Assembly (NCBI RefSeq): GCF_000949385.2
Contig: NZ_JYKO02000001.1
Coordinates: 2,504,620-2,568,619, forward strand
Source: Pseudomonas sp. LFM046
GTDB taxonomy: Bacteria; Pseudomonadota; Gammaproteobacteria; Pseudomonadales; Pseudomonadaceae
DNA length: 64,000 nt
Reading direction: 5' to 3'
Below, piece after piece: positions 5,073 through 42,445 of this stretch; within the stretch, counting starts at the first letter, position 1, and the number at the start of each line of letters is the position of its first letter. The notes under the pieces are model-generated. The model searched no databases and was not told where the DNA came from. It worked only from the letters and a program-made list of their open reading frames with translations. The translations under genes were made by a program, and so were the position numbers.

Positions 5073-7170
<2,098 letters not shown>

Positions 7171-7174
<4 letters not shown>

Positions 7175-8289
7175 GGAAGCTTGACTCCCGCATCCCAGGG
7201 TTCGGTCGTCTCGATCACGCCGCCGCCGAGGCAGACTTCGCCATCATAGAAGACCACGGACTGGCCCGGGGTGACGGCGCGCTGGGGCTCGTCGAATACC
7301 GCGATGTACCCGTCGGCGGTCTTTTCCAGGGTGCAGGGCTGGTCGCTCTGACGATAGCGCACCTTGGCCTTGAGCCTGCGCGGCTGGCCAAGGTCGACGG
7401 GGTTGACCCAGTAGATCTCGGTCGCCTTGAGGGCGCGGGAGAAGAGCCAGGGGTTCTCGTTACCCTGACCAACGATCAGCACATTGCGGGAGAGGTCTTT
7501 GGCTAGGACGTACCAGGGATCGTCTGTGGCGTCCTTCATGCCGCCGATGCCCAGGCCCTGGCGCTGGCCGATGGTGTGGTACATCAGGCCGTGGTGGCGG
7601 CCGATGACCTCGCCTTCAGTGGTTTCGATGTTTCCCGGCTGGGCGGGCAGGTACTGCTTGAGAAAGTCGGTGAATCGACGCTCGCCGATAAAGCAGATCC
7701 CGGTGGAGTCCTTCTTCTTCGCGGTGGCCAGGCCATATTTCTCGGCGATGGCGCGTACTTCCGGCTTTTCCAGTTCGCCCACGGGGAACAGGGTGCGGGC
7801 GATCTGCTCGCCGCCCACCGCATGCAGGAAATAGCTCTGGTCCTTGTTCGGGTCCAGGCCCTTGAGCAGTTCGGTGCGGCCGTCGATGTCGCGGCGGCGC
7901 ACGTAGTGCCCGGTGGCGATCAGGTCGGCGCCGAGGGACAGGGCGTAGTCGAGGAAGGCTTTGAACTTGATCTCGCGGTTGCAGAGGATGTCCGGGTTCG
8001 GTGTACGGCCGGCCTTGTATTCGGCGAGGAAGTGCTCGAACACGTTGTCCCAGTACTCGGCGGCGAAGTTGGCGGTGTGCAGCTTGATGCCAATGCGGTC
8101 GCAGACGGCCTGGGCGTCGGCCAGGTCTACCTTGGCGGTGCAATACTCGGTGCCGTCGTCCTCGTCCCAGTTCTTCATGAACAGGCCTTCGACCTGGTAG
8201 CCCTGCTCGAGGAGCAGGAGGGCGGAAACCGAGGAATCGACGCCGCCGGACATGCCGACTATGACGCGGGTATTGGCTGGATCACGCAT
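7171..8289 (-). CDS. mnmA: tRNA-specific 2-thiouridylase MnmA
   Basis: The 372-residue enzyme has the PP-loop ATP motif SGGVDSS near residue 14. Its two catalytic cysteines are at about 103 ([10 protein letters not shown]) and 199 ([10 protein letters not shown]). It puts sulfur on U34 of tRNA Lys, Glu and Gln, using ATP and persulfide relayed by TusA-TusBCD-TusE. The tusDCBE genes for that relay are in this window at 28.7-30.1 kb. The ATG at 8289 ([12 protein letters not shown]) is preferred to a possible start four codons upstream because the family begins here. Confidence 0.95.
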
Positions 8290-39555: not shown

Positions 39556-40116
39556 ATGAATATTCCTAACCTGCTCACCGTTCTGCGCGTACTGCTCATC
39601 CCTGTCTTCATCCTGCTGTTCTATCTGCCGTTCTCCTGGAGCTATCTGGCAGCCAGTGCAGTCTTCGCTATCGCGGCGGTCACCGACTGGTTCGATGGCT
39701 ACCTGGCTCGCCGCTGGCAGCAGAGCACACCCTTTGGCGCTTTCCTCGACCCGGTCGCAGACAAGCTGATGGTGGCGGTGGCGCTGGTACTGCTGGTGGA
39801 AGAGCACCACAACCTCTGGCTGACCCTGCCGGCCGCCACCATTATCGGGCGCGAGATCGTGGTCTCGGCCCTGCGCGAATGGATGGCTGAACTCGGTGCC
39901 CGTGCCCACGTTGCGGTGTCGAACCTCGGGAAATGGAAAACCGCTGCGCAGATGCTGGCGCTGGTCATCCTGCTGGCAAACCCGCCGCTGCTTAACTTCT
40001 GGGTGGCAATCGGATATTTCCTGCTGATCCTGGCAGCAGCCCTGACCCTCTGGTCGATGCTGCATTACCTGCTGGCCGCGTTGCCGCACCTCAGCACTGA
40101 CCCGAAGGAAAAATAA
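39556..40116 (+). CDS. pgsA: CDP-diacylglycerol-glycerol-3-phosphate 3-phosphatidyltransferase
   Basis: The 186-residue membrane protein has the CDP-alcohol phosphotransferase motif [27 protein letters not shown] (D-G-x2-A-R-x8-G-x3-D-x3-D) within four or more helices. It makes phosphatidylglycerophosphate for phosphatidylglycerol and cardiolipin. It follows uvrC by 32 bp and is followed by the tRNA cluster. Confidence 0.95.
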
Positions 40117-40186
40117 AAGTTTTTTTGAATCAAGGGGTTGACGGCAGTTCATGAATCTATAGAATGGCGCCCGTCAACACGACAAA

Positions 40187-40262
<76 letters not shown>

Positions 40263-40271
40263 GTTTCACGC

Positions 40272-40298
40272 GATGACGCCGCCGAAAGCGGCGTCATC
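40272..40298 (+). other. Hairpin between tRNA-Gly and tRNA-Cys
   Basis: GATGACGCCGC and GCGGCGTCATC form an 11-bp stem with a 5-base loop in the tRNA spacer. It is without a T-run, so probably a processing signal or an ordinary spacer structure. Confidence 0.6.
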
Positions 40299-40303
40299 GT
40301 TTA

Positions 40304-40377
40304 GGCCGGATGGCAGAGTGGTCATGCAGCGGATTGCAAATCCGTGTACGCCGGTTCGATTCCGACTTCGGCCTCCA
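40304..40377 (+). tRNA. tRNA-Cys (anticodon GCA)
   Basis: 74 bases from GGCCGGATGGC to TCCA. The anticodon loop TTGCAAA lies between GCGGA and TCCGT. The T arm is CGCCGGTTCGATTCCGAC-like. Its 3' half plus the following terminator is repeated at 41563-41645, which marks it as an integration target. Confidence 0.97.
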
Positions 40378-40423
40378 TCTAAAAAGCCCCGTAGATCAAA
40401 AGTCTACGGGGCTTTTTTCATGC
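40339..40423. repeat. att-like direct repeat, copy at tRNA-Cys
   Basis: This copy spans the tRNA-Cys anticodon-arm 3' side through its terminator. It aligns over about 85 bases with 41563-41645, at roughly 80 percent identity with two one-base gaps. Shared blocks include CCGGTTCGATTCC and CTACGGGGCTTTTTTCAT. It is the copy that keeps a functional tRNA. Confidence 0.85.
40382..40418 (+). terminator. Terminator of the tRNA Gly-Cys transcript
   Basis: AAAAGCCCCGTAGA pairs with TCTACGGGGCTTTT around a 7-base loop, followed by further T. It is part of the direct repeat with 41563-41645. Confidence 0.92.
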
Positions 40424-40475
40424 CTTGCGAAAGTTCGTAGCACGGATGGTTTTGGGACGCGTCCCATAACGTCCG

Positions 40476-40574
40476 TCACTTCGACGGCTTCGCAACGGCA
40501 CCGGCACGGCGGTAAACGCGCTCCGTGATTCCTTCCTTGCTATGGCCCAGCAGCCAGCTGGCATCGTCTTCCTT
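40476..40574 (-). pseudogene. C-terminal fragment of a tyrosine recombinase (integrase)
   Basis: The last 32 codons of a phage-type integrase are open between an upstream TGA (40575-40577) and its own stop TGA (40476-40478). They read KEDDASWLLGHSKE, then GITERVYRRAGAVAKPSK. The LGHS block and the active-site tyrosine (ERVYRR) are typical of the family's C terminus; the catalytic Arg/Lys part is missing. It points toward the tRNA-Cys end, as integrase genes usually lie next to their att site. Too short for an ordinary ORF search. Confidence 0.8.
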
Positions 40575-40666
40575 TCATCGGAGCATTAGAGCACCGCGTC
40601 GCAAGGCGCTGTCGCATCTTTTGGGTTCCTTGATTTGCGGCGTGGCGCCGTATTGCGGAGGTTTCG

Positions 40667-40882
40667 ATGGCACGCGATAAAGAGTTTGCTTTGAAGCAGG
40701 CATTGGTGGCGGTGCTGGCTGCTGCGAGGGAGCTAGGTGTGGGCGACCAGATAGTGGCTAAGGCAACTGCTGGTCTGGTCAGCGACAACCCCAGATACCG
40801 TTGGCTCCAGCAATCGCATATCAAGTCGCCGGTCTCAGAGATCGAGCAAACGGCAGGGTGGATCGAGCGACAAGCCAGTTAA
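40667..40882 (+). CDS. Small hypothetical protein inside the element remnant
   Basis: The 71-residue frame MARDKEFALKQALVAVLAAARELGVGDQIVAKATAGLVSDNPRYRWLQQSH... has a GCGGAGG ribosome site 6 bp upstream. It is helical and soluble, without a known motif to me. Together with the integrase fragment it is likely cargo of the old island. Confidence 0.6.
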   Translation: MARDKEFALKQALVAVLAAARELGVGDQIVAKATAGLVSDNPRYRWLQQSHIKSPVSEIEQTAGWIERQAS

Positions 40883-41183
40883 GTGTTCTGATCGAGTGGT
40901 GCTTTCTCCAGATTGAGTGATGCCGTGTCGCTTGTCCGGCCGGCGAATGGTGCGTGTGATTGTTGAGCTCGCCCTCCAGGCCATGGGGGCGGCCAATGCC
41001 AGACGCCGGCCGTGACAGGCGAGCACGTCCCCGTAGTCGATCAACTACAGGCACCTGGCTGAAATCGCCACAGCAGGTGGCTGTGAACGACGATATTTGG
41101 CCCTGCCCGGATTCAATACATTGACCCCCTCATGGAGTTGATCCATGGGCGTTAACCATTCAGTCGAACGTTAGGGGCACCGT
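40883..41183. other. Non-coding stretch within the element remnant
   Basis: About 300 bases with no supported gene. A minus-strand frame at 40835-41044 is present, but no start signal or family was recognised. It may be further transposon or island debris. Confidence 0.4.
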
Positions 41184-41453
41184 ATGAATCTCTCGAATCT
41201 GCGAACTGAGTCGGTCTACCAGACTTGGGACTTACTGGTTGGATTATCCCGTGACACCAATCTGCCACATGATGTCCGGCGGGGAGCGAATTGGTTGCTG
41301 AGGCACTATTCATTCTCCCAGAAGGTCCACCGAAGCTCTCCGGTCTTACCTGACACGCAGGATGAGGGGGTAGTGCAACGCGAACAGCGCGCCGATCGGT
41401 CGACCGACTCAATGCCGCTCATGCGCCTGCCGGTGGGTCGCAGGCATCGGTAG
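41184..41453 (+). CDS. BPSL0761-like small protein
   Basis: The 89-residue frame starts MNLSNLRTESVYQTWDLLVGLSRDTNLPHDVRRGANWLLRHYS. This is the pattern of the BPSL0761 family of small proteins, often found on islands: TR.V..T...L..LS.DT.LP..VRR.A..LLRHYP. The region after residue 45 (RSSPVLPDTQDEGVVQREQRADRS) looks unlike the family and may be a shifted tail. A GGGGCACC ribosome-like site precedes it. Function unknown. Confidence 0.55.
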   Translation: MNLSNLRTESVYQTWDLLVGLSRDTNLPHDVRRGANWLLRHYSFSQKVHRSSPVLPDTQDEGVVQREQRADRSTDSMPLMRLPVGRRHR

Positions 41454-41562
41454 ACCGCCTTGCCTGAGCAGGGTTGCGCAAGAAGCAATGGGTTGGCTTC
41501 ACATTGCGAAAACGATTGTTTCGTAAGGTGGTTATTGGAAATGTTTTAGTAATCGGGCTACG

Positions 41563-41645
41563 AATCTGCGTACACCGGTTCGATTCCCGCTCCGTATTCC
41601 ATCAAAAAGCCCCTGGATCAAACATCTACGGGGCTTTTTTCATGC
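41563..41645. repeat. att-like direct repeat, distal degenerate copy
   Basis: It resembles the 3' part of tRNA-Cys (AATCTGCGTACACCGGTTCG...) followed by a copy of its terminator (CTACGGGGCTTTTTTCAT). No working tRNA can form, since the 5' half is not there. This is the probable far attachment site of the integrated element; it could also be termination for transcripts crossing the remnant. Confidence 0.8.
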
Positions 41646-41777
41646 GTTCTTGATCGGTACGGCAGGTCGACCAGGGGTGAAGTCAGTGGTGAGACTGGCT
41701 GGCGATCCACGCCTAAGTGATTGATTCGGAATTTTATTTGGGCTTAAATCAGCGCCCTGCATCAGTACCCCCTCCTG

Positions 41778-41862
41778 CCCGGATGGCGAAATCGGTATAC
41801 GCAGAGCACTTAAAATGCTTCGCCCTTTGGGCTTGCGGGTTCGAGTCCCGCTCCGGGCACCA
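41778..41862 (+). tRNA. tRNA-Leu (anticodon UAA)
   Basis: 85-base class II tRNA from GCCCGGATGGC to encoded CCA. The anticodon loop CTTAAAA lies between GAGCA and TGCTT. Variable arm and T arm GCGGGTTCGAGTCCCGC are intact. It would adjoin tRNA-Cys if the element remnant were removed. Confidence 0.97.
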
Positions 41863-42445
41863 TTGAAATCAATGCCTTGCGCACCTTTCTTCAAGTTATT
41901 TCCCGTCAGCATTGACGGGCTTTTCGCGTTCAGTTCCTGCCCGCAGCGGGGCCGGAAGAAAACGATCTAATAACTCGCAGCCAGCATCCAGAGCCTTTGC
42001 TACCCTGAATTTCAGTAGGTGGATACGCAGACTGATGCGCGAGGAGGGTAGTGAGAAGACGTGGGGCGCGTTCCCTGGGGTACACGGTTAGAAAGATCTC
42101 CCTACTGAGATCAAGCCCTTGCGCCGTGTGAAGCAGAAGAGATGACATGCTTCTGTCAGATGCCCGAAAAATCTTGCAAGCCGGAAACCAGCACCGGCCA
42201 CCTACTACGAATTCCAGGCCCGCCTCGTGCGGGCCTGTTCGTTTCACGCGGTGATAGGTGGGAAATCATTCCTTCCTATATCATCGGTGAACGCCCGGTC
42301 GTAGGAACATTCCGATACTGGTGTTGAACCTTACTTGCAGCTAAACGGACCAAGGCTGTAAGCATGGTGCACGTCCGCATCGAATCCGGAGTGCGAATCC
42401 GCGGGCACCCAAAGGCCTGAATGGATCAGGCGAGAGAGGAAACGA
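41863..42445. other. Intergenic region after tRNA-Leu
   Basis: About 580 bases. Besides the terminator at 41902 it holds a hairpin AGGCCCGC-ctcgt-GCGGGCCT at 42216-42236 followed by GTTCGTTTC. This looks like a second terminator of the kind that follows tRNA or small RNA genes. No gene on either strand is supported. Confidence 0.5.
41902..41924 (+). terminator. Terminator after tRNA-Leu
   Basis: CCCGTCA-gcat-TGACGGG followed by CTTTT, 40 bp past the tRNA. Confidence 0.88.

Follow-up and report, generated by a model that had tools for sequence, protein, structure and literature searches.

The 1,399-nt spacer between tRNA-Cys and tRNA-Leu in the 5.97-Mb genome of Pseudomonas sp. LFM046 is very probably a relict left by a phage-like element or island that integrated at the tRNA-Cys 3' part and terminator. 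The spacer lies in the window (the whole 64,000-nt stretch of DNA that was analysed), in which the gene order is uvrC, pgsA, tRNA-Gly, tRNA-Cys, spacer and tRNA-Leu, the two genes upstream of tRNA-Gly being those that we take, from their translations, to be uvrC and pgsA. ARAGORN placed the three tRNAs on the plus strand, with tRNA-Gly(GCC) at 40187-40262 as the upstream neighbour, an intact tRNA-Cys(GCA), the putative integration target on the attL side, at 40304-40377, and tRNA-Leu(TAA) at 41777-41862 as the downstream neighbour; between 39500 and 42800 only these three tRNAs reached Rfam gathering scores. The G+C content of the interior is 57.1% compared with 62.3% for the window. Automatic annotation would probably show the spacer as two hypothetical genes, while its reading as a relict accounts for the stretch.

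Observed are a direct repeat, an integrase tail, empty sites, larger inserts and intact relatives of the element. According to our model, a tyrosine integrase would have recombined attP with the tRNA-Cys 3' part and terminator; the left side would thereby have regained a whole tRNA with its terminator, the old 3' part would have moved to the right end, and tRNA-Leu and its upstream segment would have stayed intact. A later deletion would have taken nearly everything, reducing the integrase to its last 29 codons with two small ORF modules remaining, and the right repeat would have drifted after integration. The initial annotation had claimed that an island integrated at tRNA-Cys and then shrank to the present spacer. 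Its first part is supported by the repeat, the empty sites and the full-length relatives; deletion as the cause of the shrinkage, as well as the direction of the exchange and the present immobility, is what we infer.

Direct repeat and integrase tail

A degraded recurrence of the tRNA-Cys 3' half and its terminator at the far end of the spacer had been proposed before, and alignment of the two copies bore this out. Local alignment paired 40339-40426 with 41563-41648 at a score of 97, and the segment originally noted scored 96 against the spacer, well beyond the chance controls, where the maximum was 27 among 500 first-order resampled spacers and 24 among chunks of the same length taken elsewhere in the window, so that a repeat by chance is ruled out. 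An ungapped repeat finder put the repeat start at 40330/41554, a 5' extension that is weak because only five of the nine extra bases match. The left copy, consisting of the tRNA-Cys 3' part and terminator (40330-40426, plus strand), is firm from 40339 and weaker from 40330, and the right copy on the attR side, a decayed pseudo tRNA-Cys 3' part with terminator (41554-41648, plus strand), is firm from 41563. With these boundaries, set by hand from the output of the ungapped finder, 78 of 97 columns match, the remainder being 12 transitions, 5 transversions and 2 gap columns; the tRNA part matches at 35 of 49 columns and the terminator part at 42 of 49. The right copy starts at tRNA nucleotide 27 by the ungapped finder or 36 by the scored alignment and was not called as a tRNA by ARAGORN. 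Folding gave hairpins for the tRNA-Cys terminator (40379-40420, plus strand; -25.3 kcal/mol) and for that of the right copy (41601-41642, plus strand; -18.4 kcal/mol). A simple terminator scan of 40100-41900 reported no site, though both hairpins fold strongly.

Just inside the left repeat, the minus strand of 40476-40574 encodes 32 codons and a stop, which the initial annotation had taken as the end of a tyrosine recombinase. Such a tail is indeed present, but its recognisable portion is the last 29 codons plus stop (40476-40565, minus strand) and not all 32; protein homology to integrases is limited to the last 29 residues (window 40565-40479). LLGH and what is presumably the catalytic Tyr are kept in the tail, and 49 nt separate its stop from the left repeat. 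The proposed search of the fragment against integrases led to 86% identity over 29 aa to full-length frames of two family genomes (G166 and G352) and 79% to that of a third (G203). Among phage integrases, identity was 76% over 29 aa to PseuP_222, where the integrase is followed by a tRNA-Ser-like 3' end (read by eye) and not by tRNA-Cys as in the window, and 59% over 27 aa to LESphi2. When the related tail of genome G006 was used as a 54-aa query, 36 of 50,697 phage records were matched, 30 of them named Pseudomonas; the integrase of phage F10 is one that this tail matched. The 32-residue piece alone matches no family in Pfam and PHROGs; for PF00589, the G203 integrase reached 44.4 bits (cut-off 27.1) and the short window fragment gave no match. 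A complete integrase, as a functional integrative element needs, is thus absent from the spacer, with 29 recognisable codons only. Between the tRNA and the integrase stop lies a palindrome, GTTTTGGGACGCGTCCCATAAC (40449-40470, without strand), which is possibly an integrase-binding site; the same palindrome or a similar one is present in G006, G203, G041, G064, G108 and G300.

The tRNA-Cys site in the genus and the family

The tRNA-Cys to tRNA-Leu spacing was compared in 17 other genomes, representing all of the genus set, and revealed ten empty sites, six inserts of ~12-41 kb and one unrelated spacer of 1.2 kb. As had been predicted for a site without the element, tRNA-Leu is next to tRNA-Cys in the ten empty genomes, with gaps of 163 (G001), 183 (G002), 187 (G014 and G016), 188 (G011), 189 (G005), 191 (G004), 223 (G009), 224 (G008) and 277 nt (G017), hence a range of 163-277 nt. 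Joining the two repeat copies of the window would give a gap of 174 nt, and the five empty sites that resemble it most have 183-189 nt; in these five genomes (G002, G005, G011, G014 and G016) the right copy aligns contiguously as far as tRNA-Leu. A segment directly upstream of tRNA-Leu (41710-41776, plus strand) is common to the occupied genomes and five of the ten empty ones and is perhaps the tRNA-Leu promoter; it was not reported by a promoter scan. None of the 17 genomes carries the same spacer as the window, pieces of it being found in four, and relatives sharing the spacer without any island form, which the initial annotation had named as speaking against its reading, were not found among them.

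The six larger inserts, whose sizes were worked out by hand from the mapped places, measure ~12 (G007), 21 (G003), 22 (G012), 23 (G013), 34 (G015) and 41 kb (G006). They are not regarded as intact forms because none gave a PF00589 match, and no intact form was seen within the genus. G006, with the 189 nt after tRNA-Cys being 88% identical to the window, represents another truncated form, and orfA- or orfB-like modules (see below) are common to the window and G003, G012 and G015. The 11 bases after the terminator (CCTTGCGAAAG, with one change in G012) are common to G003, G006, G012 and G015, which says little because the corresponding bases of the empty sites in G011, G014 and G016 are in part similar. 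A single origin for G000, G006, G003, G012 and G015 was neither rejected (p-AU 0.207) nor demonstrated; the tree, in which the deep forks are uncertain, needs three changes for these five genomes, and a single change was obtained in no bootstrap tree. A second tree was calculated without G002, which formed an extreme branch in the first one and for which the first 819 nt of the uvrC-pgsA query were unmatched in the piece fetched.

Some details of individual genomes were also recorded. Upstream of tRNA-Gly in G002 (L104), these 819 nt are missing next to the remainder of the query, and uvrC may be interrupted there or this may be an assembly matter. The spacer of G010 (L010 862-2082; 1,221 nt) matches the window at its two ends only, is otherwise unrelated and carries a cold-shock-like ORF, labelled by eye. 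In G006, the tRNA-Cys 3' part with its terminator occurs once more in inverted orientation (L012 2080-2185), at a distance of 1.25 kb from the tRNA, and the integrase tail of this genome overlaps with a frame resembling a terminase (L012 869-1297), again labelled by eye.

Across the family, an integrase-tail match within ~400 nt of a tRNA-Cys match was found in at least 21 of 398 genomes, a number compiled by hand among the matches listed. The open frames reach 349 aa or more in eight of these genomes (G166, G352, G203, G063, G048, G390, G096 and G386) and are shorter in 13 (G292, G000, G041, G199, G300, G064, G087, G006, G396, G137, G074, G108 and G297), with a 90-aa frame beside tRNA-Cys in G241 as a further case. 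The full-length integrase adjoins a complete tRNA-Cys in G166 and G203 and a partial tRNA-Cys copy in G352. G203 carries a 53-kb element with the integrase at the tRNA-Cys end and a perfect 50-bp tRNA repeat as its far end, ~450 nt beyond which tRNA-Leu follows. The second copies in these elements of other genera (G203, G041, G064, G297 and G299) extend from tRNA nucleotide 22-27 into the terminator, with a start close to that of the right copy in the window, and a tRNA-plus-terminator copy is also present in far stretches of G074, G352 and G166. No second copy was detected in the fetched stretches of G199, G396, G300, G108, G292 and G260, those of G396 and G300 ending before tRNA-Leu. A full element with the same integrase at tRNA-Cys is therefore represented by G203 with both ends and by G166 with integrase and far copy, and by none in the genus. 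The relative with an empty or a full site that the initial annotation had sought was found in both forms, the empty one in 10 of the 17 genus genomes and the full-length integrase beside tRNA-Cys only in other genera. In contig 1 of G074, tRNA-Cys and integrase tail (539597, plus strand) are ~443 kb apart from the right repeat and tRNA-Leu (982376, minus strand), as if an inversion broke inside the element.

Interior modules and competing explanations

Between the integrase tail and the right repeat, the plus strand carries two modules. The first (40566-40883, including ~100 nt upstream) contains orfA (40667-40882, 71 aa), which matches phrog_31739 of unknown function (E 3.2e-07), and the second (41030-41453) consists of a conserved ~100-nt leader and orfB (41184-41453, 89 aa), which passes the NCBIfam family NF041728 (BPSL0761 family) with 37.3 bits at a cut-off of 35 and belongs to a diverged subfamily with a conserved leader. 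The interior ORFs matched no tail family, and nothing recognisably phage-structural was found between integrase tail and right repeat. The stretch had originally been described simply as what remains of a shrunken island, a description that has to be qualified, as the interior holds two intact small ORFs whose types recur elsewhere in the window's genome. Secondary recombination may thus have acted besides deletion and, with nothing phage-structural present, the original element may account for only part of the interior. A related plasmid was rejected as a source, 40420-41760 having no match to one. Among phage DNA records (best 20 of 170 and 40 of 324), the matches fell on tRNA genes or tRNA-like stretches or belonged to unannotated records.

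Close copies of orfA were detected in three of the 398 family genomes, namely twice in G000, twice in G012 and once, with a stop, in G015, and 22 more family genomes gave weak matches with 30-42% identity; a pattern search of genome contigs for close orfA relatives led to 595 matches, of which none was confirmed. Relative to the window, dN/dS was ~0.13-0.15 for orfA (2 pairs) and 0.17-0.45 for orfB (3 pairs), values from few codons and with dS partly above 1, and judged from these sequences both ORFs look constrained, at least in the past. The orfB leader is conserved in 10 aligned copies and more weakly in L085 and L093-L096. Its left boundary is sharp (window 41030-41183; L002, L003, L004, L006, L007 and L008), and its conservation looks no lower than that of the gene. 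It might act as a promoter, represent a short coding stretch or belong to a dispersed unit; a structured RNA found no support in a 69-nt piece overlapping most of its first half (z -1.22).

The origin of these modules bears on a possible, though less likely than not, two-step history, in which the element first lost everything except its integrase tail and attachment sites, and in which the two ORF modules came later and separately. Such a history would fit the junction, where the DNA remains homologous to integrase genes up to 40565-40569 (mostly 40565-40566) and two other orfA copies become homologous from 40565 (L137) and 40569 (L004) onwards, and it would fit the occurrence of orfB without orfA at other places in the window's genome. 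However, orfB-like modules also lie near tRNA-Cys inside the inserts of G003, G012 and G015, which suits cargo of an older element, and orfA is likewise found inside the G012 insert and, with one stop, in that of G015. The first post-terminator bases of these three inserts resemble the window too, a weak point given the partly similar empty sites mentioned above.

We consider it unlikely that orfA and leader-orfB are, rather than leftover cargo, discrete dispersed units that settle in or take over decaying tRNA integration sites. Apart from the units at tRNA-Cys in the window, G003, G012 and G015, one orfB unit in the window's genome follows tRNA-Val and an integrase-like minus-strand tail after ~0.85 kb (L032, G000:C1:3688000-3702000, 6415-7767). 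This tail, labelled by eye, has no Pfam match; a single phage record, PotUPM1, holds a hypothetical protein that it matches. A search over 6 kb detected no repeat of the tRNA-Val end. In G012 (L137, contig 1, near 67072), an orfA module starts ~170 nt past tRNA-Ser(TGA), the matching part of the window being without tRNA-Ser. The link of the units to tRNAs is weakened by two other copies in the window's genome without a tRNA within their 14-kb stretches, and by the BPSL0761-family loci of the genus, where none of 30 fetched had a tRNA within ~1.5 kb.

That the two ends, the palindrome and two ORFs with signs of constraint have persisted might also reflect a minimal element whose cargo is kept by selection and which integrases of resident relatives can still move in trans. 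This appears very improbable, since 14 of 49 columns, including one end gap, differ in the tRNA part of the right copy, and the core sites therefore no longer match well. Clusters of tRNA genes do duplicate, and a tandem duplication of tRNA-Cys and terminator with decay of one copy and unrelated DNA between them would agree with the direct orientation and the joint duplication of tRNA half and terminator, but it is hardly credible, as the duplicate is without the first 26 to 35 nt, much as far copies in integrase-bearing elements are without the first 21 to 26, and as the integrase tail sits where such elements carry theirs.

Comparison with known elements

The window relict, read as the remainder of an element integrated at tRNA-Cys, is of a known kind and adds a good comparative series and no new mechanism. 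It makes one tRNA-Cys site comparable across Pseudomonadaceae, with empty sites, a 53-kb element with full integrase, truncated forms and the 1.4-kb relict, and shows the decay of a tRNA-integrated element in which tRNA-Cys and terminator stay whole while the DNA beyond turns over. We found no literature dealing with pgsA, uvrC and islands together; BPSL0761 turned up in one paper.

As far as its published description goes, prophage 05 of P. fluorescens Pf-5 is a similarly small tRNA-Cys remnant of 2.6 kb, which contains a phage integrase in truncated form and is flanked by 84-bp direct repeats that overlap the anticodon and T loops (PMC2647930). By that description it differs from the window relict, with its 1.4-kb spacer and a repeat of 88 to 97 bp, in size and in having a putative phage tail gene, in place of which the window relict has two other small ORFs. 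The hopAR1 prophage of P. syringae, as described, also integrates at tRNA-Cys but, unlike the window relict, is complete and active with a 67-bp att site, and its excision and transfer were shown experimentally (PMC10107160). For the tRNA-Cys gene located close to lecA in P. aeruginosa, a position in a region of great instability is described (PMC4885879).
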